DNA from: Bolinopsis microptera
Lineage: Eukaryota > Ctenophora > Tentaculata > Lobata > Bolinopsidae
NCBI RefSeq assembly: GCF_026151205.1
Contig: NC_087078.1
Coordinates: 14,897,118 to 14,961,117, forward strand
Length of the DNA stretch: 64,000 nucleotides
Direction of reading: 5' to 3'
Positions within the stretch are counted from its first letter, which is position 1. Each line of letters begins with the position of its first letter. The notes under the pieces were generated by a model that did not search any database, had not been told where the DNA came from, and saw only the letters and a list, made by a program, of their open reading frames with translations. Shown in pieces: positions 6,310 to 63,290 of this stretch. The position numbers were made by a program, and so were the translations under genes.

Positions 6310-7290
6310 CTCAAATTATTGCTATTTACCAATATTAATTGATCACTGATGTGGCACTTTCAGCGGAAAATTAGTAATAGAAAGCGGACAAACCAGTTTT
6401 GGTGAAGGATGTATATCTTATACTCTTATAGTAGTTGTACACTGTACAGCAATGCTAAGGTAATGAGGTAATGCTGTAATGGGACTACTGCGGACCCTCT
6501 ACCGGCCAAACATATTATCTCATTATTGAAGGGTGTAGACTGTAATATAGATGTAAGAACTTGCTAAATTGGGAGGTGACTGTTTTAAAATGATCAGATG
6601 CTTGCTTACTAACTTATTAAGAATGAGAGGTGATAGTGATTTACTTTATCTTGACAGGACAGTTAAGTATTTAAGCTTAAGAAACCACGTGGAGCTAAAC
6701 GGTGCAAGTGATATAATACTTGAAAATTGACCCCCCCCCCCCCCCCCCCGACAATTGACCAAACAAATATATTTATTATACTAACCCTAACAGTAACCCG
6801 ATTGGGCGACATCTGTCCGACAGCGACATCTGTCCGACAGCCGAATTGGGGATTTCGGACAGATTTCGCTGTCGGACAGGAGTCGTTTTTGGCGACATCT
6901 GTCCGAATTTCGGATCATATTGTAATTTCGGTTCACATTCGTATTTCACAAACTCACGGGTAATTTCGTGACGTTGCTCCCATTGTTCGAATGCTGATTT
7001 GATCCATTGAGATCTGATCCATCGATACGTGATTGACTATTTAAGGACAGGATTGTGCTAGCCGTACACTAACAAGCTGTCGATCACATCACAGGACACA
7101 GCCTACATGAGTACATATAGGATAGCAGCCGTATGGAGATCAGTTATCGCAATCCACAATGGCAACCAATCTTCAGTAAACAGACCCAGATCTGCAGCAA
7201 ACAGACCCGAGAGATCTGGAAACGCTATCCATTCCTGCAAACTAAATCCTCTCTACCGACAACAGTCCAATGATGCTCTGGGACCCTGGA

Positions 7291-9293: not shown

Positions 9294-9693
9294 CATCATC
9301 CGTATAGGTACGTACTGAATATAACATGCCTATCATCCCCAATGATCTCTATTCTCAACATACCTAATGAGTGGTCCCAGCAATATAAAGATATAAACAG
9401 TTGTATTTATGATTTCTCGGTTAAACTTTCCTGCTGATAGTGATTCTAATTATCGACGGTTAATTATCTGATGTACGTGGTCCATCAACAGCTGCCCCTT
9501 GATGACATTCCATTTCTTAATTTATTTTCACTGCCTTGCTTTGGGAATTGAACTCCTTATTATATTTATGGAAGGATGCACTGGTAAACCTAGTAAACTG
9601 TAAATAAGTCATATTTGTTATTACATTTCCAATGTTTAAGGTATGGTAAAATCATGATTCTAATCAGCAATAAAACCAGCTGGATGAAATTTC
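9294..9693. other. Non-coding
   Basis: No gene or repeat recognised. The stretch is matched in the degraded copy near 26,100-26,690. Confidence 0.5.
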
Positions 9694-10233
9694 GAATTTC
9701 TAATTTCTAATTTCTAATTTCCAATTTCTAATTTCTAATTTCTAATTTCTAATTTCTAATTTTCCATTTCCAATTTCTCATTTCTAATTTCTAATTTCTA
9801 ATTTTCCATTTCCAATTTCCCATTTCCAATTTCTAATTTCCAATTTCTAATTTCCAATTTCTAATTTCTAATTTCTAATTTCTAATTTCCAATTTCTAAT
9901 TTCTAATTTCTAATTTCCAATTTCTAATTTCTAATTTCTAATTTCTAATTTCTAATTTCTAATTTCTAATTTCTAATTTCTAATTTCTAATTTCTAATTT
10001 CTAATTTCTAATTTCTAATTTCTAATTTCTAATTTCTAATTTCTAATTTCTAATTTCTAATTTCTAATTTCTAATTTCTAATTTCTAATTTCTAATTTCT
10101 AATTTCTAATTTCTAATTTCTAATTTCTAATTTCTAATTTCTAATTTCTAATTTCTAATTTCTAATTTCTAATTTCTAATTTCTAATTTCTAATTTCTAA
10201 TTTCTAATTTCTAATTTCTAATTTCTAATTTCG
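9694..10233 (+). repeat. Microsatellite (TTTCTAA)n
   Basis: About 75 copies of a 7-bp unit. TTTCCAA and TTTTCCA variants lie mainly in the first third, and the rest is nearly pure. The equivalent tract at 26,690-27,700 is about twice as long and full of homopolymer differences. Confidence 0.95.
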
Positions 10234-10498: not shown

Positions 10499-12109
10499 TT
10501 ATAGTTCTACCCAGGGTTTCCAAACTCCATCAACCTTTCCTTTATTTGAAAAATTCCGTTCTTCAACCGTCTTCATCTTGTTCAAATATCCTTGTTTTTT
10601 ATCGAGCAATTTCATCACCATATCTGGATATTTATTAGCTACATTGTGTTCCTCTCTAACATCTGAGGACAGATCAAAAAGGAATGTTCCAGACACTATT
10701 CTCCATATATGCATTTTTCCTCCGTAACTTAAGAATTGTTTGTATTCGTGTCTCTGGCCACTTTCTGAAGTCCAACCTTGGAATATTACTCCTGTGCCGA
10801 CAAGAAGCTTCCAATTCTTCCATCGAATAACGAAAAAGTCTTGCGCTGAAGAAAATTTATGTTTTGCTTTGCGGAATTTTGCTTCAAATGTTTTGAGGTT
10901 GATTGGATATTTTTTGGCATTGTCAAGTCCATTTCTGCCTTCCGAGTCCAGCCTTTTAGAAGGATCCCTTAATTCATAAAGAATCTCATCGCGGCAAGAT
11001 TCGTTATTATTGATAGATCTCCAGATGTCAACTCCGTCTATTGGTAACTGTGGTTTACTGTGCTTCTCTGGGTTGTCTCCCGCTAGTTTCTGAAATGAAG
11101 CATACCAATCAGTCACATGGTGTAAGTTGGTGTTGGTGTAACCAGACTTTTCAAGGAGTGGGCTGTGAACAAAGGATACTGCTCTGACGCCTCCTTCCAG
11201 ATAAGATCTCTTACCTCCTCTCAGAGGATAGTTGCTTCCGAAATCATGTGCTCCATTGTCTGAAGTGAATAACAAAACAGTGTTGTCCATCATTCCTTTC
11301 AGACGTAGAGTGTCAATTACTTTTCCTATCCCTTCATCCATCACAGATATCTGAGTCGTATATATTTGTCTCTCTTCTCTTTGACGAGTATTTTTAGGAA
11401 TGTGTGAGGCAAATCTTTCTACATCTTCCTTAGAAGCTTGGTGGGGAACATGAGGTGCAGTGTATGCTAAATAAAGAAAGAAGGGGTTGCTTTGGTTGTG
11501 GTTTTGGATAAGCTCAACTGACTTGTCAGTGAACAGATATGTGTTATACTGTCCCGTTAGATCATTCCGTACGTCGTCAACTAAATTACTATTCTCATCG
11601 TAATAGTTTTCCCTAAAGTCTGTCAGGTTTGCCATTGTATGTTTGAAATAGTCCTGTTCACTGTTGTACGAACCAAACCAGGTATCGAAACCTCTCTTTA
11701 CGGGTGTGTGTTCCCAAGTATGCATACCAAGATGCCATTTTCCTACGCCGTGTGTCGAGTATCCGTTTGTTTTCAGCATCTCAGGGAGCAAGGTCTCGTC
11801 CAATCCCAATCCAAACTCCTCCATTGGTTTGATATTTCCCTTCCAGAATCCTGTTCGGATTGGATACCGACCAGTCATAAGAGCAGATCGAGTAGGAGAG
11901 CAGCTAGCAGCTACGATGTGATTCTCCAGAATCACACTCTTGTTAGCAAGTCTATCAATATTTGGAGTCATTGCAATAGATCCTCTGAATCCTACATCGT
12001 TGTATCCCAAGTCATCTGCTACTATTACCACTATATTGGGTTGTTTACAATCGACATGGTCTAGGAGGGTTACGAAGACAAGTGCTACCAACAAAAGTAC
12101 GTCAGGCAT
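10499..12109 (-). CDS. Arylsulfatase (ARSB/ARSI/ARSJ-like), secreted or lysosomal
   Basis: 536 aa from the ATG at 12,109; an upstream in-frame TTG at 12,136 is not a likely start. Residues 1-21 form a signal peptide. Sulfatase active-site elements are all present. The metal-binding ADDLGY has its Asp pair at 32-33. CSPTRSALMTGR has Cys70 as the formylglycine precursor in the CxPxR motif. GKWHLG gives Lys124 and His126, His219 lies in APHVPH, SDNGA gives Asp283 and Asn284, and Lys299 lies in RGGKRS. Sulfatases of this group remove sulfate from GalNAc-4-sulfate or aryl sulfates. Substrate here is inferred only to family level. Length matches animal ARSB/I/J. A single uninterrupted exon suggests ancestral intron loss or retroposition. 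A broken copy lies at 28,516-29,884 and a 5' fragment at 30,262-30,366. Confidence 0.93.
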   Translation of the reverse strand: MPDVLLLVALVFVTLLDHVDCKQPNIVVIVADDLGYNDVGFRGSIAMTPNIDRLANKSVILENHIVAASCSPTRSALMTGRYPIRTGFWKGNIKPMEEFGLGLDETLLPEMLKTNGYSTHGVGKWHLGMHTWEHTPVKRGFDTWFGSYNSEQDYFKHTMANLTDFRENYYDENSNLVDDVRNDLTGQYNTYLFTDKSVELIQNHNQSNPFFLYLAYTAPHVPHQASKEDVERFASHIPKNTRQREERQIYTTQISVMDEGIGKVIDTLRLKGMMDNTVLLFTSDNGAHDFGSNYPLRGGKRSYLEGGVRAVSFVHSPLLEKSGYTNTNLHHVTDWYASFQKLAGDNPEKHSKPQLPIDGVDIWRSINNNESCRDEILYELRDPSKRLDSEGRNGLDNAKKYPINLKTFEAKFRKAKHKFSSAQDFFVIRWKNWKLLVGTGVIFQGWTSESGQRHEYKQFLSYGGKMHIWRIVSGTFLFDLSSDVREEHNVANKYPDMVMKLLDKKQGYLNKMKTVEERNFSNKGKVDGVWKPWVEL

Positions 12110-13864
12110 GGCCTGAAATTTGTGGTGATCAACCAACCATTCAACGAACTAAGGATTAAATTATATCAGTGGGTTACGAAATTTGTCAAAATAATTAAAC
12201 GATAATAGAACTTTAGAACAAAGTTAAATATAAACACCTCCAATACCTGACAAAAAATCATGAAGATGGCCTGCAGTTTAACATCCTTATATTATGTTAT
12301 TTTATGGATCCTGGGTTAGGGCTGAGATCGGAGTTATAAGGACAGGGCTTGAGGGCTAGGAATTATCACATCATGTTTATTATTTTTTCAAGACTTGGCC
12401 TTGGTGTATGTGGACTAAGGAAGCAACTTGAGTTTTACTGGGCAAGGTTAGTCCTAAAATGTTGCAGCCAAGGGCGCCATATTTAAAATTAATGTTAACG
12501 AGCAATCTAAAAATAATTGTCAGTGCCGTACATTACAAGAACTTTAACCGTTTTACAAGTTTAACAAGATCATAATAAATTCTTCGCACGGAATATTAGT
12601 GAAGTTTATCTTCCGGTAAACTCTATTCACGTGACCTCATTTGACCGTGTCTCTCCCTGTCCCACATATGTACATTTAATTTATCATTTTGTATATCACA
12701 ACACTCCCAGCTTCTGCTAAAATACCATCTAGAAATATATTATTATTAGTGTAATATGGTATTGGTTAGTGCTACTGTTTGTGGGATATTGTCTTTGCTA
12801 GTCCTATAATACTATAATTATAATAGTGATGCGGTGATCGAGGAGGATAATAAATATAATGTTAACCAGCATTCAACGTGTTTTGAGAGCAAATATATAA
12901 TGAAACTAATAGTCTTGCTGTAAAACTACAACCATCTTGAAGATGGCTAAAACAAAGCTACTCTTCAATAAAAGAGAACACGACGTCCAAATACACGGTA
13001 TAAGTGTAAATTCAATGTAGCAGCAACATTCCATCCTAAACCAACCAGTGACATAAACAATGATTTCAGATACCTCCCCAGTTTCACCATCACAAGCCGT
13101 AGTGGCGAACCGATTCGCCTTATCATTCAGGTATTTATTAAGATAATATATCGTATCCTCCGTTTGAATTTGTTTGTAAAACTCAACACACACCAGCAGA
13201 AATGAGTTCATCATGAAATGAAATATCGCTTTTACATCCCGCTTGTATTATGAAAAATAAAATACTTTAAATTCCAAATTTAAGTTAATTTATTATTTTA
13301 CTTACCTTCTTTGTTAGAGGGAGTTATATGAATCAGTCATTGATGTTACATTTTTAATATTAATAATATTATATAATATGCACATCCTTTTCTGTACAAC
13401 CTTACCTAAAATTTCGAATTTCCCGGTCAACTTTCGAGCCAAAATCAGAACATGAGAAAGGTCACTAGTCAATTCTCTGTGGTTTCAAGTCGTTGCTGGG
13501 GGAATTTCTTCAAGTTTAAGATATAGTAGCTCAGTTAATTATACTTAATAGTTGTGCTGGGTCATCTCAGAAAAGAATAGCACAGGTTTTTCAGGAATTA
13601 TTTGGTCAAAATAATCTCAAATTCAAGTTTGTACCAGCTCCTACTGTAATCTTTACTGCATAATGTGATGATTAAATACACTAATAACACATTTTCACTC
13701 TGGACGGGTTCAAATTCGACACCTATGATTTCACAATCACAAGAACTTCCATACCTACTCAGAGGGACATTTTCACCATCTTCTGCAATCACATAAGTCT
13801 ACGATTTGATCACATTAAATTAGATACATTTTCGCTTTGTTGAAATATTTGTATAACCCGCACT
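12110..13864. other. Intergenic, repeatedly duplicated segment
   Basis: No gene I can support. Pieces recur elsewhere: 12,310-12,680 at 31,280-31,700, 12,685-12,900 at 37,640-37,800 and at about 30,060-30,245, and 12,806-13,860 at 19,303-20,430. The TA at 12,682-12,683 is the empty target site of the mariner element inserted in the 31.7-kb copy. The minus-strand open frame at 12,906-13,214 has an equivalent at 19.3-19.8 kb, but it is broken there and resembles no family I know. Confidence 0.6.
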
Positions 13865-26689: not shown

Positions 26690-27700
26690 GAAATTTTCGA
26701 AATTTCCCCTAATGTTCTAAATTTTTTCCCATTTTATCCCCCAAATTCCCCTACATTTTTTTTTTCTAAATTCAAAAATTTGTTTAATTTTTTTCCTAAT
26801 TTCCTAATTACTAATTTCTAATTTTTCCTAAATTTCCAATTTACCTAAAATTTCTAATTTCTTAAATTTTTTCCATTTCCCCCTAAATTTTCCAATCATC
26901 CCATGTGTCTAATTTTTCTAAATTTCTAAATTTCTAATTTTTTCCCATTTTCCCAATTTCCCCCCATTACCCAATCCCCAATATTCTAAATTTACAATAT
27001 TCTATTTTTTCCCAATTCAAATCTTTCCCAATTTCTTAATTTCTAATTTTTTCCATTTTTCCTAATTTATATTCTTCCCTAAATTTCTCAATGTTCCTAA
27101 ATTTTTACTAATTTCCTAAATTTTTCTCAATTTCCCCCTCAATTTCCCCCTAATTTCAAGTTTTTCCTAATTTTTCTAAATTTTCCTTAAATTTACCATG
27201 TCTTAATTTTTTAATTTGTCATAATTTCTAAATATTCTAATTTCAATTTCCCTAATTTTCTAACACATGGGTAAAGTTTTCCCAGTAAATGAATCCTTTT
27301 CTAATTTCCTTAATTTTTCTAATTTTCCTAATTATTCTAATTTTTTCCTAATTTTCTAATTTTCTAATTTTCCCCCCCATTAATTTTTCTAAATTTTTCC
27401 CCTACCCTTTAATTTCTAATTTGCTAATTTCTATTTCCTAATTTCCCTAAATTTTCCTAAATTTCAAATTATACCTTAAATTTCAAATGTTTCCTAAATT
27501 TCAAATTTCTAATTTCCTAATTTCTAATTTTCTTAAATTTAACTACCTTAATTTCCCTATTTCTTCTAAATTTTTTCTAAAATTCTAATATTCTAAATTT
27601 CTAAATTTTTCCCTAAATTATACTAAAATTTGTCCTAATTTCATTAATTTTCTAATTTTCCTTTAATTTTTCTAATTTCTAATTTTTCTTAAATTTCTAT
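26690..27700 (+). repeat. Degraded (TTTCTAA)n microsatellite
   Basis: The counterpart of 9,694-10,233, about 1.0 kb instead of 0.54 kb. The 7-bp period is blurred by homopolymer insertions. Confidence 0.8.
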
Positions 27701-28515: not shown

Positions 28516-29884
28516 ACTCCTACCTCTCTGTCCACTTTCTGAGGTCCAACCTTGGAGCATTATTCCTGTGCCGACAAGAAGCTTCCAATTCTTCCATCGA
28601 ATAACGAAAAAGTCTTGCGCGTCGTAAGACAATTTATGTTCTACTTTGCGGAATTTTGCTTCAAATGTTTTGAGGTTGATTGGATATTTTTTGGCATTGT
28701 CAAGTCCATTTCTGCCTTCCGAGTCCAGCCTTTTAGAAGGATCCCTTAATTCATAAAGAATCTCATCGCGGCAAGATTCGTTATTATTGATAGATCTCCA
28801 GATGTCAACTCCGTCTATTGGTAACTGTGGTTTACTGTGCTTCTCTGGGTTGTCTCCCGCTAGTTTCTGAAATGTAGCATACCAATCAGTCACATGGTGT
28901 AGTTGGTGTTGGTGTAACCAGACTTTTCAAGGAGTGGGCTGTGAACAAAGGATACTGCTCTGACGCCTCCTTCCAGATAAGATCTCTTACCTCCTCTCAG
29001 AGGATAGTTGCTTCCGAAATTATGTGCTCCATTGTCTGAAGTGAATAACAAAACAATGTTGTCCATCATTCCTTTTAGACGTAGAGTGTCAATTACTTTT
29101 CCTATCCCTTCATCCATTACAGATATCTGAGCTGCATACCTTTTTCTTTCTTTACTTTTAGAAATGTTACCAGGTATGTGTGAGGCAAATCTTTTTACAT
29201 CTTCCTTAGAAGCTTGGCGGGGAACATGAGGTGCAGTGTATGCTAAATAAAGAAAGAAGGGGTTGCTTTGGTTGTGGTTTTGAATGAGCTCAACTGACTT
29301 GTCAGTGAACAGATATGTGTTATACTGTCCCGTTAGATCATTCCGTACGTCGTCAACTAAATTACTATTCTCATCGTAATAGTTTTCCCTAAAGTCTGTC
29401 TTGCCCTTGAATGTACGTTTGAAATAATCCTGTTGACAGTTGTACAAACCAAACCAGGTATCGAAACCTCTCTTTGCAGGCGTGTGTTCCCAAGTATGCA
29501 TACCGAGATGCCATTTTCCTACGCCGTGTGTTGAGTATCCGTTTGTTTTCAGCATCTCAGGGAGCAAGGTCTCATCCAATCCCAATCCAAACTCCTCCAT
29601 TGGTTTGATATTTCCCTTCCAGAATCCTGTTCGGATTTGATATCGACCAGTCATAAGAGCAGATCGAGTAGGAGAGCAGCTAGCAGCTACGATGTGATTC
29701 TCCAGAATCACACTCTTATTAGCAAGTCTATCAATATTTGGAGTCAGTGCAATAGATCTTCTGAATCCTACATCGTTGTATCCCAGGTCATCTGCTACTA
29801 TTATCACTATATTGGGTTGTTTACAATCGACATCGTCTAGGAGGGTTACGAGACAAGTGCTACCACCAAGAGTACGTCAGGCAT
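28516..29884 (-). pseudogene. Second arylsulfatase copy, frameshifted and truncated
   Basis: Very close to the arylsulfatase at 10,499-12,109. The ATG is equivalent at 29,882-29,884. A one-base deletion in the signal-peptide part (gttacgagac instead of gttacgaagac) shifts the frame. A second one-base deletion near 28,897 splits the remaining frame into 28,890-29,807 and the part below 28,893. The C-terminal ~100 residues are lost at the C run at 28,500. Catalytic elements (VADDLGY, CSPTRSALMTGR, GKWHLG, SDNGA) remain. Several amino-acid differences (for example NISKSKERKRYAAQ for NTRQREERQIYTTQ) show a genuinely diverged gene or allele, not only errors. Confidence 0.8.
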
Positions 29885-45500: not shown

Positions 45501-48500
45501 CATTGTTTTTCTGGAACTTTGCGTTTTCTTTCGTGAACTTGTTGATTTCTTCCTGTGGAATATAGATATAACATGAATGAAACGCATCATATAACGGTTT
45601 AAATTAAATTTTTGCACCAAGACGTTTATTGACTGAGAATGGGATGATACTCATACAATGTTAAATTTGGCTATCAGGCTATCATCAATCATGAACAAAG
45701 TGAGCGGGGAAAAAATCAGATCTAGTGCAATACCTTCATTTGACCAATTTGAGCCTCAAGTTGTTTGTTGTTCTCCTCAAACTTAGCGTTCTCATGACCC
45801 ATCTTATCAACCTGTCCCTCCAGCTGGGCTACACTCGCATTAAGGGCATCCTTGGTAGCTTCCAGCTGGTTGTTCAGCTCTCCTAGTTTGTTCACCTCAC
45901 CAGAAAGTGCGTCAACCTGTCCTTTCAAAGCGGCGTTGTTCTCAGCAAATTTGTTGTTTTCCTCTGACATTTTGTTCAGTTCACCGCTCAGTTTTCCGAT
46001 TTCAGCCGTTAGTTGAGCGTTGTTTGCTCCGAATTTCTCGTTCTCAAGCTCTTGTTTTTTGTTGTTTGCAGCAAATTTGTTGTTTTCTTCCGTCATTTTT
46101 CCGACTTCTTGTTCCAGTTTTTTGTTGTTCGCGGCAAACTTCTCGTTTTCCTGCAAACCATTTACATTAATACTTATCATCACTCAAAATTTTACTTGCA
46201 GAATCACTAAACTTGATTGAAAACCACAGCAGACTTATCAAGTTAAAAACTGCCGCTAAAGTTCAATTTATAGTTGGTTTGTCAAACCTGAGCCATTTTG
46301 TCCACTTCACCCTCCAGCCGGTTAACTTCTCCCTCGAGTTTAGCATTGTTCGCTGCAAACTTGTTGTTTTCTTCTGTCATCTTACCGACCTCTTGTTCTA
46401 GCTTCTTGTTGTTGGCAGCAAACTTGTTGTTCTCCTGCAATGTTTGTTTTATGATTACGTCAATTTGTCTGAAATCAGCAAATGATTATTCAAGTTTTGT
46501 AGCTGAGATGAAGCCTTGCATGAATTTGAAAACGAAGGTGAAAGTAACAATTCCAGTAACAATATTGTTTTCCAATGAACCTCGGTCATTTTGTCGACCT
46601 CCCCTTCCAGTCGGTTAACATTTGCCTCCAACTTTGCATTATTAGCGGAAAACTTCTCGTTCTCTACGGCCAGATTGTCAACTTCTCCTCCGAGTCTGTT
46701 AACTTCACTTTCTAGTTTATCGTTGCTAGCTGCAAATCTGTCGTTCTCTCCCGACATCCTGTTCACCTGAACAGATATTTTACAGTTATTAATTATTGTT
46801 ATTATTAGTTATTAGTTACAGTGGACGGTTATATTGATTGGGAAGTATTGTTTTGTTGAATAACCATGACATCGACATGCAGAAACATAATATGTTATCT
46901 TGTAAACTGATAATGTCATGCCAGTTATAGTACTACTTTAAAGCTTCAACTATACTATTGTCACTAATAAGCCATGAGATTCTTGGCTATTGGCTAGCTG
47001 TCAATGGCAATGTTGAACCTTTTTTCTTCTAAATACGAAGAAAGGAGGTTCAACGTTGCCATTAACGTCAGTAGCATCACTTTTAACGTATATAGCGTCA
47101 TTTCAATTTACTGTATGTGGCGCCATGTGATGGTTACTTTTGAAACCAAACACATAGTTCATACTTCACGTAGTGATCCTAATCGTTTATAATATATAAG
47201 CGCCAATCACCATTTTGTGAATTAAATCTGCAGAAGTAACATAAGTGTTTAACTTTAAGTGCTGCGTATAACCAACCATAATTCAATTCCAATGATTAAA
47301 TTATTCTGACATTATACAGTTACTGCACAGGTCACAGAACAGTAATGTTTTTCTTGTCGCTCTCAAGTTTGTGACTCGTGAGTATTCCGATTTAATTTTG
47401 GCAATTTATTTTTCTAGCTATGTATTACGTTAAACTTATAGCTGGAATTAACTATTGAACAAGTAGATATATGTTAATCATAGATACAGCATACATACTG
47501 TATATTGAGTATGTACTTACCTGGGGACCCCAGGCTATTATGTTCATAAACATAAAGATTCGGCGGAATGACAGGCTGAGCGCCGCCCAGTAAGTATGTA
47601 CAATTACATACTGTATTTAGATTTGTTGAGCTAAGTGACCGCGTAATATAACGTTTCTCAAGGTTTGTTCGGTATAATTATGGTAACGCCATACAATATT
47701 GCAATGCAGAAATGAAGGAATAAGTTTCATGCGGTAGAAATATTTAGTAGCAAAAGGTTGTCATGCCCATTTCTCTTACAGGCGTATACCTCTTTTCTCA
47801 ACAGATCGTTGTTTGAATTAGCACACACGTTTTCATTGTGTATCCTGTCTAACTGAAATTACCAACTCACTTAAAAGTTAAAAATTGTACACAAAAGTAG
47901 AAATCAGGAAAATTCTTTCAGCCAGTGGCTATCTTATTAGATTTAGGGAATGAGACCGCAAATCGAGATGAATTAACGAACCTCGTGTTCGAGTTTAGCG
48001 AACTTAGAAGCAGCAGTATCGAAGTGTGGTGTCACAAGAACGGTGAGCGAGCCTGTAGTTCCTCCCATTAGTTCCGAGATCTGAAGAATGAAATGTTAAA
48101 ACTCGGAGAGGGGGAGCCTGTAGTTCCTCCCATTAGTTCCGAGATCTGAAGAATGAAATGTTAAAACTCGGAGAGGGGGAGCCTGTAGTTCCTCCCATTA
48201 GTTCCGAGATCTGAAGAATGAAATGTTAAAACTCGGAGAGGGGGAGCCTGTAGTTCCTCCCATTAGTTCCGAGATCTGAAGAATGAAATGTTAAAACTCG
48301 GAGAGGGGGAGCCTGTAGTTCCTCCCATTAGTTCCGAGATCTGAAGAATGAAATGTTAAAACTCGGAGAGGGGGAGCCTGTAGTTCCTCCCATTAGTTCC
48401 GAGATCTGAAGAATGAAATGTTAAAATTCGGAGAGGGGGAGCCTGTAGTTCCTCCCATTAGTTCCGAGATCTGAAGAATGAAATGTTAAAACTCGGAGAG

Positions 48501-49417
48501 GGGGAGCCTGTAGTTCCTCCCATTAGTTCCTCCCATTCCTCCCATTAGTTCCGAGGTCTGAAGATTGAAGTATTAAAACTCGGAGAGGGGGATTGGGGGT
48601 CGGGTTGGTGAATTATTACTAATGGATAACTAGGAGCAGATCAAATTAAGGGGAAGGGACATAAGAGCTCTAAAATCAGGGATCAAGTAACATGAGAGAA
48701 AGGGAAGATCAAACCTTTTTAGCTTCAGTATCTTTGTAACAATCATCGAAAGCAACAAAGGAGTATCCCATAAACTCGTCACTCTTTATAGAGTTGTGAT
48801 CCCACAAGGAGACTGATATCACCTGTTTAAAATATCAAGGATTTATCATCGTAATGCTGTTTAATTTTCCATTTCCCTGACTTTATATATTATTGCGAAG
48901 GAAGGTAAGGGTAAGGTCTGCAGTTTAACCTCAAGTACTCAAGTATCAACTGATAATATTGAGTTGGTTCAATTGTTAATAATTAACATAATTAATTAAT
49001 AAATCATTGATTATTTACCTCATCCCCCTCAAAAGCCTCGAATTCAAATGTTTCATTCCATTCTGGGTTCAGTTTACCTTCCTTCGTTTTAGTTTTCTGT
49101 ACTTTTCCTCCGAGTTCTATCTGCAAAATTATGGAATTGAAGAAGTCACTGGTAATGAATTACAAAATTCAATCACAGAATCGCAATTTCTAGTGGCAGT
49201 GCTTTAGAGGACTGTTGATTACGACAAAGATTCATAAATAAACTACATAATTCGATAATATAAATGAAAGCACGGAAAAGTATGGAAACTGATAAATCTG
49301 CCATCTTACTTTGCAGTACGGATCGCTTTTTGACAGCAACTCCTTGTTTTTAAGATTACTTGCGCTAACAACTCTAACAGTGATCTTTCCGATCTTCCTT
49401 TTATCGGCAGCTCCCAT
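42577..49417 (-). CDS. C2 domain, long coiled coil and EF-hand protein (12 exons, 629 aa)
   Basis: Exons in transcription order: 49,310-49,417; 49,019-49,120; 48,715-48,822; 47,982-48,080; 46,581-46,766; 46,288-46,434; 45,734-46,150; 45,337-45,552; 45,117-45,209; 44,746-44,868; 44,099-44,296; 42,577-42,669. Every junction has GT/AG and every intron is phase 0. Residues 8-130 are a C2 domain (KSDPYC, LNPEWNETF, LWDHNSIKSDEFMG), with Asp residues placed as in calcium-binding C2 domains. Residues ~140-530 are a coiled coil of 21- and 28-residue modules (ENNKFAANNKKLEQEVGKMT). The C terminus has a degenerate EF-hand (DQEQGLSPEEFEKFL), then a canonical loop, DKNQDHVIDSDE, and ends KECA. There is no signal peptide or TM from the chosen MGAADKRK start; an upstream in-frame start would add ~22 hydrophobic residues. 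Probably a cytosolic, calcium-responsive, membrane-associated scaffold; the family is not recognised. An extra exon in the 46,767-47,981 intron is possible. Confidence 0.88.
43246..43393. mobile_element. hAT-type MITE in the last intron
   Basis: 148 bp, with ends CAGGGACAAAAGGA and TCCTTTTGTCCCTG, flanked by a perfect 8-bp duplication ATCAAAAC (43,238-43,245 and 43,394-43,401). The interior repeats 'tcgcggta'. Confidence 0.92.
47003..47063. repeat. Short hairpin, MITE-like
   Basis: Near-perfect inverted arms (AATGGCAATGTTGAACC and the complement of AATGGCAACGTTGAACC) around a short AT-rich loop, in the large intron of the C2/coiled-coil gene. Confidence 0.75.
47516..47594 (-). repeat. Short GC-palindrome repeat
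   Basis: It contains CTGGGGACCCCAG and a GGCGC-type core between TTAC and GTAA ends. The reverse-oriented relative is at 60,269-60,337 and a fragment lies at 50,024-50,046. Confidence 0.65.
48051..48592 (-). repeat. 65-bp minisatellite made of a splice-acceptor region
   Basis: Eight units start at 48,051, then every 65 bp to 48,506; the last is altered and partly expanded. In the minus-strand gene each unit holds 'cattcttcag' (3' splice site), the first 30 nt of exon 4 (ISELMGGTTG) and about 25 nt of intron-like pyrimidine-rich sequence. Only the unit at the left edge continues into the real exon 4 (47,982-48,080). The units are almost identical. Confidence 0.95.
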
Positions 49418-53669: not shown

Positions 53670-55580
53670 TGTTAGGTAGGGGTATAGTGAATTGAGGGTG
53701 AACAGGTTTGCAAATATCTCACGGCCTGCATTAGTATCTTATAAAATATTTGTACTGAGAGACGGGTAGTCGGTCGATTAATTTAAAGTCTTTATCAATT
53801 TAGAAAATATTTGGAGTCAGCGTAACAAGCTGAAAGTTGTAAGGTTTGTATGATTGAGATGTCTCACGGCGTGAAGCTGTAGTTAGTATTTTAAGCCGTT
53901 GTAAATTAGTAGTTATTTGGAATTGTGACGTTCCCGGTGGGAAAAGCAGTGGCTTAAAGATTGTTAAAGTTTCAAATTTATTAGAACTTATAGTTAAAAG
54001 AATACTTACAATTATTTTAACAGCATTGATTGTTGATTATTGTGTTGACGAACTAGCCGAGGTGTTACAAGAGTGCCATGAGAATCAACTCCCCCTTCAA
54101 CTCCCCAAAGACCTGTCAACCAGCACTATACAAAAAGGGAAGCTCGCCTGCTGCTCGCTGCCTTTCGCCTTCTGCATTCATCTGTCTCCTATCATGGCCC
54201 GGGGTCTTGTTCTGCTGTGTCCGTTCTCTCTCCACATGTTACTCATTTCTATCATAGGTTCGTAATTTAGATTAAGTTCTTGATCATGTTATTGTCATTG
54301 CTTGCATTCGTATCAAAGGCTGATGTTAAGATTAATTCGTACTTATGTCAATTTCCGTCGTATAATGCTTAATATGCTGTTAACATACATAATATCTCAT
54401 CAGATTCCTCGCACTACTAGTACTACCTGTTCCCGATAGATCCTTCCAGAATTAGGCTAGGGAGTTCCTTTCCTGAGGTAACGATCCTACGTAAAACCTT
54501 AATCCATCGTTCATAATCATAGCTCTTTTCCACTTGTTAACGTTGACGATTGTAGTATTATAGGTATTTCCTGTGTACTAATTATTAGTTCTAATAGTTA
54601 TTAATCTCCAGGCAATATGATGGTGATACCCACCCTACTTGCTCTGCCTGTCCTCACCTAAGCTCCACCAGTCGTATTGCTTCGTAAGTTTATTACGTCT
54701 TCATTAAGAGGTTCCTACGAAAGATTTTCCCTTATTTTAACTTAATTAGTCTGATTATTGTCACTACTTGAACGCTCCGTACTTATAATTATCTTACTTC
54801 AGATTGATTCCCCCCTCCTTCCTCGAGAACCGTTCGTCACTATGTTAGATCCTCGAGATGACCATGCAAGATGGTTCAGTTCTAGTTGACATTCCACTAT
54901 ATGAAAAGACCAGATCGCCACTTTATATTCTTATTCCTTGGTTAGTAAATTATACTTATAGTGATTCTAGTTCGTAAGTTATCTAGAAGTAGGAAATTAA
55001 TACCTATATTCCGTATAATTAGTGTGGTCTATTAAATTTGTATTGATATATGATCTCTTCAGAGAGAGAGAGAGAACCGGAACAGCGACCTCGTGAATCA
55101 TCCTATTTAATCGCTTCACCCTCGCCACATTCGCTACTACTTCAATTATTGGGGTAAATGGACATTAAGACTAAGTTATGAGATATGAGAGTTAAATTAA
55201 TATTGTAGTCCTATTTAACCCAATTATTTTACAATCTTATTTTCTTGTTTCAATTGGTTATCTTCCAGATATAAATTCACATAAAATTCTGAAATCCATA
55301 ATTACAATAGAAATTACTGTCCTAAAATGTATCTGTACAAAGAGAGTTTGGGTTTGGACTGTGCCCTGAATGAGTCTCAAACCGGGAGGTATTCCATAAT
55401 ATCGGAACCTGAATTTCCATACTCTAGTTAAAAGGAGCCCATTATACGTAGTTAAATTAATACCATCACAATATAATGAAATATAATAAATAAATAATCT
55501 CTAGAAGTCATGGAAAATTGGAGCATTAAATAGGCCGTTAAGTAAGTTGTCGTGCTGAAACCCGAGTACGCATCTTAACA
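53670..55580 (+). repeat. Left LTR
   Basis: TG...CA ends. It includes a GAGA run near 55,063. Transcription signals are not clear. The short open frame near 54,026, identical in both LTRs, is not considered a gene. Confidence 0.95.
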
Positions 55581-57155: not shown

Positions 57156-58040
57156 ATGGCCGAACGTGATAATGATAACTTCGACGCTGGACAGGATGAC
57201 GTCCAACCTCCATTACCTCCTAGGCAAAATCGAGTCCATCAGGGAGCCCCACTTCAATTTCTTCGAGCACCTCCCTTACTAAGAATGGACAATGAGTTAG
57301 AGTTATATATACGGCGCTTCCAAAGTTATGTCGAAAGTATTGGAGCAAGAGAGCATGAAATACCTCATATCTTAATCAACTGCCTATCTGATGAGTGCCT
57401 CCTGGCTGTAGAACGACACATAAGGCCTGACATCACGTTTGATGAGTTACTTATTATACTGAGAAGAGAGCTAGGAACTGGGGGTGGAAACAGAGAGGAG
57501 TCCAAATTCTTATTAAGAAAGACCTTAAGACAAAGAAACGAGGGTGTACGTGCATTTTACATTAAACTTTATAATGTTGCCAAGAAAGCCTATCCCGGAC
57601 CAGATCTTCAACTAGTTAGAGATAACGCACTCCGCGACGCTTTTATCAACAATATCATGGACTCCGCAATTAGTGCTAGACTCAGGGAAACCCCTGACTT
57701 ACCCAATGAGCAGCTATTAGAGCGAGCAGAACTTTTGATTAACTGCAAAAATGCGTCTCAGTTTAAAAGCAACCAGCAAGTTAATGCAACCATAGAGCTT
57801 GAAAATGCCACTACCACTGTTAGTAACCAAGACGTGTTATACAAGTTAGATACTATAATTGAGTTATTGTCTACCAATGCAAGTACACAAGTAGACCCTG
57901 GAACTTATAACCCTGCTGAGAATAGTGACCAAATTGTGTCGGACAATTACGGACAGTACTATGACAATAAAGATAATTACGACCAGAATATGCACTACAA
58001 TGACACATACAATTACAACGACTTTACTTTGAGATATTAA
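57156..58040 (+). CDS. Gag-like capsid protein of the LTR element
   Basis: 294 aa from ATG 57,156. A Pro-rich N-terminal linker is followed by an alpha-helical capsid-like core (about 45-205) with ELYIRRFQSYVESIG, DELLIILRRELG, EGVRAFYIKLYNVAKKAYPG and a 'LRDAFINNI' helix. This order is seen in Ty3/Gypsy-type Gag. There is no CCHC zinc knuckle; the C terminus is instead an Asn/Asp/Tyr-rich tail (DNYGQYYDNKDNYDQNMHYN), which is unusual. It would form virus-like particles for the element's RNA. No pol follows; the frame stops at 58,040, 250 bp before the right LTR. The assignment rests on helix pattern and position, so it is less certain than a motif match. Confidence 0.75.
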   Translation: MAERDNDNFDAGQDDVQPPLPPRQNRVHQGAPLQFLRAPPLLRMDNELELYIRRFQSYVESIGAREHEIPHILINCLSDECLLAVERHIRPDITFDELLIILRRELGTGGGNREESKFLLRKTLRQRNEGVRAFYIKLYNVAKKAYPGPDLQLVRDNALRDAFINNIMDSAISARLRETPDLPNEQLLERAELLINCKNASQFKSNQQVNATIELENATTTVSNQDVLYKLDTIIELLSTNASTQVDPGTYNPAENSDQIVSDNYGQYYDNKDNYDQNMHYNDTYNYNDFTLRY

Positions 58041-58290: not shown

Positions 58291-60201
58291 TGTTAGGTAG
58301 GGGTATAGTGAATTGAGGGTGAACAGGTTTGCAAATATCTCACGGCCTGCATTAGTATCTTATAAAATATTTGTACTGAGAGACGGGTAGTCGGTCGATT
58401 AATTTAAAGTCTTTATCAATTTAGAAAATATTTGGAGTCAGCGTAACAAGCTGAAAGTTGTAAGGTTTGTATGATTGAGATGTCTCACGGCGTGAAGCTG
58501 TAGTTAGTATTTTAAGCCGTTGTAAATTAGTAGTTATTTGGAATTGTGACGTTCCCGGTGGGAAAAGCAGTGGCTTAAAGATTGTTAAAGTTTCAAATTT
58601 ATTAGAACTTATAGTTAAAAGAATACTTACAATTATTTTAACAGCATTGATTGTTGATTATTGTGTTGACGAACTAGCCGAGGTGTTACAAGAGTGCCAT
58701 GAGAATCAACTCCCCCTTCAACTCCCCAAAGACCTGTCAACCAGCACTATACAAAAAGGGAAGCTCGCCTGCTGCTCGCTGCCTTTCGCCTTCTGCATTC
58801 ATCTGTCTCCTATCATGGCCCGGGGTCTTGTTCTGCTGTGTCCGTTCTCTCTCCACATGTTACTCATTTCTATCATAGGTTCGTAATTTAGATTAAGTTC
58901 TTGATCATGTTATTGTCATTGCTTGCATTCGTATCAAAGGCTGATGTTAAGATTAATTCGTACTTATGTCAATTTCCGTCGTATAATGCTTAATATGCTG
59001 TTAACATACATAATATCTCATCAGATTCCTCGCACTACTAGTACTACCTGTTCCCGATAGATCCTTCCAGAATTAGGCTAGGGAGTTCCTTTCCTGAGGT
59101 AACGATCCTACGTAAAACCTTAATCCATCGTTCATAATCATAGCTCTTTTCCACTTGTTAACGTTGACGATTGTAGTATTATAGGTATTTCCTGTGTACT
59201 AATTATTAGTTCTAATAGTTATTAATCTCCAGGCAATATGATGGTGATACCCACCCTACTTGCTCTGCCTGTCCTCACCTAAGCTCCACCAGTCGTATTG
59301 CTTCGTAAGTTTATTACGTCTTCATTAAGAGGTTCCTACGAAAGATTTTCCCTTATTTTAACTTAATTAGTCTGATTATTGTCACTACTTGAACGCTCCG
59401 TACTTATAATTATCTTACTTCAGATTGATTCCCCCCTCCTTCCTCGAGAACCGTTCGTCACTATGTTAGATCCTCGAGATGACCATGCAAGATGGTTCAG
59501 TTCTAGTTGACATTCCACTATATGAAAAGACCAGATCGCCACTTTATATTCTTATTCCTTGGTTAGTAAATTATACTTATAGTGATTCTAGTTCGTAAGT
59601 TATCTAGAAGTAGGAAATTAATACCTATATTCCGTATAATTAGTGTGGTCTATTAAATTTGTATTGATATATGATCTCTTCAGAGAGAGAGAGAGAACCG
59701 GAACAGCGACCTCGTGAATCATCCTATTTAATCGCTTCACCCTCGCCACATTCGCTACTACTTCAATTATTGGGGTAAATGGACATTAAGACTAAGTTAT
59801 GAGATATGAGAGTTAAATTAATATTGTAGTCCTATTTAACCCAATTATTTTACAATCTTATTTTCTTGTTTCAATTGGTTATCTTCCAGATATAAATTCA
59901 CATAAAATTCTGAAATCCATAATTACAATAGAAATTACTGTCCTAAAATGTATCTGTACAAAGAGAGTTTGGGTTTGGACTGTGCCCTGAGTGAGTCTCA
60001 AACCGGGAGGTATTCCATAATATCGGAACCTGAATTTCCATACTCTAGTTAAAAGGAGCCCATTATACGTAGTTAAATTAATACCATCACAATATAATGA
60101 AATATAATAAATAAATAATCTCTAGAAGTCATGGAAAATTGGAGCATTAAATAGGCCGTTAAGTAAGTTGTCGTGCTGAAACCCGAGTACGCATCTTAAC
60201 A
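58291..60201 (+). repeat. Right LTR
   Basis: Same length and ends as the left LTR, offset by 4,621 bp, differing at one base that I noticed. Confidence 0.95.
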
Positions 60202-61411: not shown

Positions 61412-61548
61412 CTATTTACTAGATCCGGAAGAGGCGGAAGTAGGTGACGTGTTGTTGCGGAGTATTTGCTGTTGGAAGCGGGACACGTCGAATATCTTGT
61501 TTTGGGAGTTAGGAGAGAGAGCCTTGAGAGTGGGTCCATGTGGTCCAC
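61412..61548 (-). CDS. Last exon of a Ser/Asn-rich protein gene
   Basis: After the acceptor 'tgtatcctcag' the exon begins in phase 1 and encodes GPHGPTLKALSPNSQNKIFD, then VSRFQQQILRNNTS, ending SGSSK-stop at 61,412-61,414. The phase matches the donor of the exon at 63,075-63,290 exactly. The acceptor is the last unit of the minisatellite to its right. The family is not recognised. Low complexity and short length limit confidence. Confidence 0.6.
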
Positions 61549-62980
61549 CTGAGGATACAACAGTTAAATAACCGGTTCAGTGAGAAGGGAAACCATGTGG
61601 TCCACCTGAGGATACAACAGTTAAATAACCGGTTCAGTGAGAAGGGAAACCATGTGGTCCACCTGAGGATACAACAGTTAAATAACCGGTTCAGTGAGAA
61701 GGGAAACCATGTGGTCCACCTGAGGATACAACAGTTAAATACCCGGTTCAGTGAGAAGGGAAACCATGTGGTCCACCTGAGGATACAACAGTTAAATAAC
61801 CGGTTCAGTGAGAAGGGACACCATGTGGTCCACCTGAGGATACAACAGTTAAATAACCGGTTCAGTGAGAAGGGAAACCATGTGGTCCACCTGAGGATAC
61901 AGCAGTTAAATAACCGGTTCAGTGAGAAGGGAAACCATGTGGTCCACCTGAGGATACAACATTTAAATAACCGGTTCAGTGAGAAGGGAAACCATGTGGT
62001 CCACCTGAGGATACAACAGTTAAATAACCGGTTCAGTGAGAAGGAAAACCATGTGGTCCACCTGAGGATACAACAGTTAAATAACCGGTTCAGTGAGAAG
62101 GAAAACCATGTGGTCCACCTGAGGATACAACAGTTAAATAACCGGTTCAGTGAGAAGGAAAACCATGTGGTCCACCTGAGGATACAACAGTTAAATAACC
62201 GGTTCAGTGAGAAGGAAAACCATGTGGTCCACCTGAGGACACAACAGTTAAATAACCGGTTCAGTGAGAAGGGAAACCATGTGGTCCACCTGAGGATACA
62301 GCAGTTAAATAACCGGTTCAGTGAGAAGGAAAACCATGTGGTCCACCTGAGGATACAACAGTTAAATAACCGGTTCAGTGAGAAGGAAAACCATGTGGTC
62401 CACCTGAGGACACAACAGTTAAATAACCGGTTCAGTGAGAAGGGAAACCATGTGGTCCACCTGAGGATACAGCAGTTAAATAACCGGTTCAGTGAGAAGG
62501 GAAACCATGTGGTCCACCTGAGGATACAGCAGTTAAATAACCGGTTCAATGAGAAGGGAAACCATGTGGTCCACCTGAGGATACAACAGTTAAATACCCG
62601 GTTCAGTGAGAAGGGAAACCATGTGGTCCACCTGAGGATACAACAGTTAAATAACCGGTTCAGTGAGAAGGGACACCATGTGGTCCACCTGAGGATACAA
62701 CAGTTAAATAACCGGTTCAGTGAGAAGGAAAACCATGTGGTCCACCTGAGGATACAACAGTTAAATAACCGGTTCAGTGAGAAGGAAACCATGTGGTCCA
62801 CCTGAGGACACAACAGTTAAATAACCGGTTCAGTGAGAAGGGAAACCATGTGGTCCACCTGAGGATACAGCAGTTAAATAACCGCGACCGGTTCAGTGAG
62901 AAGGGAAACCATGTGGTCCACCTGAGGATACAACAGTTAAATAACCGGTTCACTGAGAAGGGACACCATGTGGACATGGA
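61536..62980 (-). repeat. 57-bp minisatellite made of a splice-acceptor region
   Basis: About 25 full units start with 'ccatgtggtccacctgagg' from 61,536. The period is 57 bp except one 56-bp unit (ending 62,788) and one 63-bp unit (near 62,880). On the minus strand each unit reads as a good 3' splice site: a pyrimidine-rich stretch ending 'ttgtatcctcag' and then the first 15 nt of the downstream exon. Because 57 is a multiple of three, long frames are open on both strands, but they are repeat artefacts. Confidence 0.95.
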
Positions 62981-63074
62981 TGTTAATAGTCAAATACAAG
63001 AACGCCACAAACGGGAGAAAATAGTGAGCGGAAAAATGTAAATTACTCGTGGGGCAAAGGATTCAAAAACTAAC

Positions 63075-63290
63075 CAGGTTTTGGAAGGGAGCTGTTGGAA
63101 GAAAGGGACGGCAAATCAGCTGGTCTAGAAGACTGGGGCGGCATGTTGTTATTTGCCCGGGGGTCAGTAACACGGGGGTCCGTCATCCTGGGGTCCGCGT
63201 GGGGGGTGTTGTGGTGCTTTCTCGTGTTGTGGTGGTAGTTGTTCGTAGCTTGCTGGTAGAGAGAGGGTTTAGAGGCTTTGTTGGTGATCA
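63075..63290 (-). CDS. Penultimate exon of the same gene
   Basis: Bounded by acceptor 'ttatactag' and donor 'gttagt'. It encodes a Pro/Ser/Asn/His-rich stretch (ITNKASKPSLYQQATNNYHH, then HADPRMTDPRVTDPRA, ending SSNSSLPKP), open throughout in the phase required by the last exon. MTDPRVTDPR is a short internal repeat. Likely disordered; no domain recognised. It is 216 bp with phase 1 at both ends. Confidence 0.6.

Follow-up and report, generated by a model that had tools for sequence, protein, structure and literature searches.

The predicted last intron of a gene of the ctenophore Bolinopsis microptera, lying in the 64-kb window (the whole stretch of DNA analysed, C7:14897118-14961117), carries a 57-bp minisatellite whose unit extends across the intron-exon boundary. 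This array is probably a minisatellite of the type called mirages in amphioxus, born by slippage or unequal exchange, with the exon-proximal acceptor being the one used. Because only that acceptor is presumably used, the array itself is most likely without function. Such arrays occur repeatedly in the genome, at donors as well as at acceptors, and a homeobox gene with tandem donors lends itself better to testing than the focal gene does. The genome searched comprises 264.65 Mb in 232 contigs, and the features are collected in Table 1.

Table 1. Arrays, predicted gene parts and host domains in the window and in the 240-kb sample (L loci).
Feature	Position in window	Strand	Period (bp) × copies	Details
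57-bp minisatellite	61536..62973	minus	57 × 25.1	TRF: 96% matches, score 2654
CCACATGG, 8-bp direct repeat, intron copy, upstream array edge	62966..62973	minus		Edges compared one period apart
CCACATGG, 8-bp direct repeat, exon copy, downstream array edge	61536..61543	minus		Edges compared one period apart
Branch-site-like TTTAAC, exon-proximal unit	61563..61568	minus		Sequence; putative branch role
Predicted last intron, 1526 nt	61549..63074	minus		Donor GTTAGT at 63074-63069; sequence prediction
Predicted start-codon exon (MTDPRVTDPRANNN...)	63075..63186	minus		ATG at 63186, ends in phase 1; frame joining
Predicted terminal coding exon (GPHGPTLKALSPNSQNKIFDVSRFQQQILRNNTSPTSASSGSSK and stop)	61412..61548	minus		Frame joining
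Unrelated array at last acceptor of C2-domain gene	48049..48530	minus	65 × 7.4	TRF
C2-domain gene, host of 65-bp array	47973..49417	minus		ATG 49417, stop to 47973; Pfam C2 E 1.9e-25
L014, acceptor			40 × 2.2	No Pfam match in either frame tried
L024, acceptor			30/44-bp units, three TRF rows	Coiled-coil-like exon, weak Pfam matches only
L020, donor			35 × 21.5	Homeodomain E 4.4e-23
L006, donor			45 × 2.1	OCRE domain E 1.9e-16
L008, donor			37 × 1.9	WSC E 1.4e-5, below Pfam cut-off
L004, donor			67 × 2.1	No Pfam match

Structure of the 57-bp Array

The first-pass annotation had described a 57-bp minisatellite of about 25 copies that is built on a 3′ splice acceptor and makes up most of the last intron, and both points hold, as TRF counts 25.1 copies and these fill most of the predicted 1526-nt intron. 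It had, by contrast, carried the array to 62980 and allotted 15 nt of exon to each unit, where TRF ends at 62973 and 13 nt are counted. Twenty-five acceptors read CAG/GTGGACC (the slash marks the cut on the minus strand), with the last base of the AG at 62922 in the most distal and at 61549 in the exon-proximal one. Between the acceptors lie 24 complete units, of which 22 measure 57 bp, one 63 bp, and one 56 bp; they comprise 11 distinct sequences, and each starts with GTGGACCACATGG, identical to the opening 13 nt of the predicted terminal exon. The branch-like TTTAAC starts 17 nt 5′ of the CAG at 24 of the 25 acceptors, the exception being TTTAAA in the unit ending at 61948. The units that end at acceptors 6-7 carry the variants GTGTCCC and CGGGTA in that order, and so do those that end at acceptors 21-22, a recurrence suggesting block exchange within the array; coming from one haplotype, the 11 unit types speak of past turnover only.

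Two other identities of the repeat were rejected. A genome search, of a kind that can miss copies, found the 57-bp unit at no other place, which speaks against a dispersed element. Rfam gave no match within the window. A coding repeat was rejected as well: the array is open in one frame per strand (434 and 421 aa), some open frame being expected from six frames and a 57-bp unit, and in the plus-strand frame six of the seven variable sites alter the amino acid (judged by eye).

Origin of the Array

The octamer CCACATGG stands at both edges of the array, which is what slippage or unequal exchange would need to produce exactly such an array. In the course of events that we infer, CCACATGG occurred by chance both in the intron and at the start of the exon, 57 bp apart; replication slippage or unequal exchange between the two copies would have duplicated the segment in between, and further exchange would have enlarged and homogenised the array to 25 copies. 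In each unit a branch-like word and pyrimidines precede the CAG and 13 nt of exon come after it, so that the array amounts to 25 competing acceptors. The array would have been tolerated through exon definition, the exon-proximal acceptor presumably being used because it alone has the whole exon after it. The structure of the array is read directly from the DNA, and slippage or unequal exchange is the process that it suggests. Edge repeats elsewhere are variable or minimal: GCAACC at L014, TAAGT or longer at L020, where it overlaps the donor word, 2 bp (TC) at the array of the C2-domain gene, and 3 bp (AAC) at L006. Direct-repeat slippage is thus not established as the general route, and the focal array is its clearest case.

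The Host Gene and the Choice of Acceptor

When the start-codon exon was joined to each of the 25 acceptors, the junction of 63075 with 61548 alone gave an open frame, of 82 aa in phase 1, as the first-pass annotation had read it. The 24 other acceptors all truncate the protein. The annotation had given all of them the ending GPHGFPSH or GVPSH and a stop; this stands for 23, which end in GPHGFPSH or GPHGVPSH and a stop, and fails for one, where the 56-bp unit leads to ...GPHGFLLTEPVI and a stop. Since the gene model has no downstream intron, the decoy stops would fall in the last exon.

The focal host gene, predicted and without a recognisable homologue, is plausible. It is unlikely that the 57-bp array lies outside any gene and that its flanking open frames are due to chance, although open frames of such a length are not uncommon by chance, and the 82-aa protein has no Pfam match and only a chance-level match in the PDB (E 1.5); no second copy of the terminal coding exon or of the protein was found in the genome. 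In a hexamer coding model, which is weak and had mostly transposon-like frames as its training set, the right frame of the terminal exon comes out first of six, but exon 1 is not favoured, a reverse-strand frame scoring above its own. The exons themselves rest on the frame, the GTTAGT donor, the branch-like TTTAAC, and the CAG. Against chance stand the agreement of donor, branch-like word, acceptor, and phase, the appearance of the long frame at one of 25 acceptors only, and the presence of the same architecture in domain-supported genes of the same genome.

The decoy acceptors might themselves be used, yielding a truncated isoform of 46-50 aa, with copy number setting the ratio and the array acting as a splicing regulator. 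The preservation of CAG at 25 of 25 acceptors and of TTTAAC at all but one would fit such use, and so would a first-come rule, which would favour decoys, as the first acceptor leaves an intron of 153 nt and the exon-proximal acceptor one of 1526 nt. We consider it very unlikely, given that every decoy truncates the focal protein, that the C2 and homeobox genes would suffer in a similar way, and that the variation among units resembles ordinary turnover. Selection for acceptor arrays as a splicing regulator, which the first reading had offered as one explanation, finds no support here. The other sites truncate or frameshift the protein without exception: all 24 do so in the focal gene, all 6 in the C2 gene, and all 20 in the homeobox gene.

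Recursive removal, in which units would leave as GT...AG segments and a second step from a regenerated donor would restore the mRNA (a ratchet of dual-specific AG/GT sites), is highly improbable, since GTGGAC is a poor donor against the usual consensus and the 65-bp array has AG/AT (AG/GT at 0 of 7), which makes it unworkable there. In its favour are AG/GT at all 25 focal acceptors, the strong donor word in the TTTCAG/GTAAGT units of locus L032 on C8, and the tandem dual-specific sites reported for UBC in PMC10809524.

The Second Array of the Window and a Homeobox Gene

That two independent arrays of the same architecture lie in the window is confirmed by the 65-bp array at the last acceptor of the C2-domain gene. 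It holds seven acceptors, CTTCAG/ATCTCGG, with the first base of the exon at 48470 to 48080; just upstream, near 48557, lies an eighth, degenerate copy, CTTCAG/ACCTCGG. Six of the seven acceptors change the tail of the protein to ...GTTGSPSP(S/N)FNISFFRSRN and a stop, with the C2 match remaining whole; the seventh gives ...LTVLVTPHFDTAASKFAKLEHEVR and a stop.

At the donor side, the homeodomain intron of the homeobox gene (L020 6600-7800, C10 at about 4.507 Mb) opens with 21 tandem donors, 20 of them CAGGTAAGT and one AAGGTAAGT. Donor 1 leads to ...QIQVQVWFQNRRAKCKKTGV and a stop, completing the homeodomain with WFQNRRAK, which is lost from all 20 other products; the homeodomain match covers 57 of 57 positions with donor 1 and 46 of 57 in the decoy form. 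One rule would serve both kinds of array, namely that the copy adjoining the complete exon is used.

Other features of the window were also recorded. Two 135-codon open frames (53857-54262 and 58478-58883) on the same strand, about 4.6 kb apart, have identical first 60 residues and flank a retroelement-gag-like frame (57156-58040), possibly as long terminal repeats. A 7-bp AATTTCT satellite of 78 copies occupies 9688-10232, and 26792-27699 is a degenerate, strongly strand-asymmetric stretch made up of related AATTTC/CCTAA words. Two frames at 10499-12136 and 28890-29807 are similar to each other, and we take them to be sulfatase-like.

Arrays at Splice Sites in a 240-kb Sample

The sample consisted of 24 pieces of 10 kb from C1 to C13, placed at round-number coordinates and picked before reading. 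Arrays with a period of 20-200 bp numbered 76 in these 240 kb and 15 in the window. A script proposed exons beside arrays, giving 18 acceptor and 14 donor rows that were then judged by eye; because it accepted only exons followed by a donor word, neither window array is on its list. Dropped by eye were L007, L012, L016, L018, L026, the window arrays at 7169 and 39043, the plus-strand row of L008, the minus-strand rows of L024, and the other L020 rows, and L020 4037 and 5216 were counted neither as kept nor as dropped. Six loci, two acceptor and four donor, were kept by eye as spanning a predicted splice site, so that the recurrence proposed in the earlier reading extends beyond the two window arrays. 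The array-host genes with a domain over the Pfam cut-off are those with the C2, homeodomain, and OCRE domains; at L014 the hexamer model prefers a frame other than the one read.

By eye, L024 (3797-6859) is an acceptor array of about 3 kb, broken by an insert of some 1.3 kb that has G and C runs on either side and contains inverted words.

A chance model with 80,000-150,000 introns predicts 1.0-1.8 acceptor arrays and as many donor arrays per 240 kb, and the probability of at least six arrays in all is 0.014-0.157, so the sample by itself is no proof of enrichment. A generic acceptor-motif test likewise gave no clear enrichment, with 17 of 49 arrays against a random-segment mean of 12.1 (SD 3.0).

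Donor and Acceptor Words across the Genome

The genome was searched for three copies of CAGGTAAGT at gaps of 20-50 bases, with the mirror word as control. Triples numbered 447 against 0 for the mirror, and single words 2463 against 1212, array copies counted; the first 100 of the 447 matches form at least 10 clusters on C1 to C10. Among 10 clusters read, five adjoin a plausible coding exon at the donor (L020, L028, L029, L030, and L034), L032 is an acceptor array, and no splice site, or no clear one, is seen at L027, L031, L033, or L035, the last of which comes without upstream sequence. The word MAGGTRAGT gave 1485 matches against 51 (single words 10388 against 8308), the first 100 of the 1485 forming 8 clusters on C1 up to 21.73 Mb, and its mirror forms 7 clusters genome-wide, of which 2 fall in that part of C1. 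Seven of the C1 clusters were new; five adjoin a plausible exon (L036, L038, L039, L040, and L041, with L039 and L041 weakly so), and no plausible exon adjoins L037 or L042. Altogether, 10 of 17 donor-word clusters with flanks adjoin, by eye, a plausible coding exon at the donor and one at the acceptor. For most exons recognised by eye no domain backs the reading: none of 10 peptides yielded a Pfam match over the cut-off, the best being Sushi at L036 (E 0.002), and WD40 at L030 (E 0.0015) is likewise under the cut-off. In L032 (C8:7268300-7269700), the units are 37 bp long, join an acceptor to a strong donor word as a tandem set of ratchet-type sites, and precede a coding-looking exon.

The donor excess is 14-fold if C1 is typical of the genome (binomial P 4e-6) and 4-fold when C1 is compared with C1 only (8 against 2 clusters, P 0.07), with clusters counted by eye and mirror words serving as a less than perfect control. 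In the first 59.8 Mb the acceptor word TTTTCAG forms 22 clusters (19 with families merged) and its mirror 6, with single words at 100152 against 55701; given these single-word counts, acceptor-word arrays are not significantly enriched in that stretch (P 0.08-0.15). The earlier suggestion of a mechanism favouring polypyrimidine/AG sites finds no support in this comparison, donor arrays being at least as common.

The donor-word excess is above what blind insertion predicts, and something further may act. Donor arrays fit a first-transcribed, first-used rule and acceptor arrays do not, which may be why donors are more enriched. It is conceivable, though we rather doubt it, that splice sites in this genome, and donors most of all, are real hot spots at which minisatellites arise or survive. 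Splice consensus words would then perhaps offer the short stretches of homology that slippage needs, or selection would perhaps not see an array in which the exon-proximal donor is the first to be transcribed; intron ends would in that case be a systematic source of tandem DNA and new introns.

Significance

The array loci are natural competitions in which one site must win among at least 20 near-identical copies a few dozen bases apart, and in the homeobox gene 20 of the 21 donor choices spoil the protein. Should RNA show the exon-proximal copy to be used almost without exception, exon definition could be measured directly in a lineage that has been proposed to be the sister group of all other animals; otherwise, copy number would be a heritable splicing dial. 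The arrays also offer a starting point for measuring the rate at which new introns arise from tandem duplication at splice sites.

Comparison with Known Systems

A minisatellite in the human interferon-induced gene 6-16 (IFI6) reportedly gives multiple splice donor sites (Turri et al., 1995), and the units described here resemble it in carrying a splice site. One study is said to have found intron gain via tandem duplication of AGGT segments. The Rogers model of intron gain, as cited in the available text of PMC3087553, invokes such duplication. The present arrays share with it a tandem duplication around a splice-like word, but no new intron is evident and an existing predicted intron is lengthened. 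In UBC, according to the available text of PMC10809524, tandem dual-specific sites lie in coding units spliced to variable number; AG/GT is likewise repeated at every unit boundary of the focal array, whose units are by contrast intronic with a weak GTGGAC, and the 65-bp array, unlike UBC, lacks AG/GT. Human minisatellites at exon-intron boundaries within segmental duplications, with 27 intron modifications in the available text of PMC2812944, are similarly tandem, of minisatellite size, and situated at gene boundaries of this kind. They are tied there to alternative splicing and new introns among recent paralogues, whereas the extra B. microptera sites look like silent decoys.

The closest resemblance is to the mirages of amphioxus. 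Canestro et al. in 2002 reportedly provided the founding paper on them. Mirages are given for Adh3, the globins BflGb6 and BflGb9, troponin C, and PGBD5, with 3 and 6 units in two haplotypes of BflGb6, in the available text of PMC3087553 and PMC3902484; the authors state that Adh3 data and RT-PCR suggest normal splicing (PMC3087553, available text). As to the features that define mirages, the tandem units are of minisatellite size (57 bp × 25.1 and 65 bp × 7.4); the unit spans the exon-intron boundary, with 13 nt of predicted exon per unit and the focal boundary taken from sequence; the C2 and homeobox genes with arrayed splice sites are domain-supported; and 5′ and 3′ boundaries are both affected (four donor and two acceptor loci by eye, plus the word clusters). 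By these testable features the B. microptera arrays would belong to the mirages and would work like them. The differences lie in the phylum and in the numbers (25 acceptors or 21 donors here against the 3 and 6 units of BflGb6). Searches of the open-access literature showed, among the papers listed, no ctenophore report of mirages or of minisatellites at splice sites. The kind of repeat is thus known and little studied, from amphioxus mirages and human exon-intron-boundary minisatellites; what is new, as far as these searches show, is the phylum and the donor excess.
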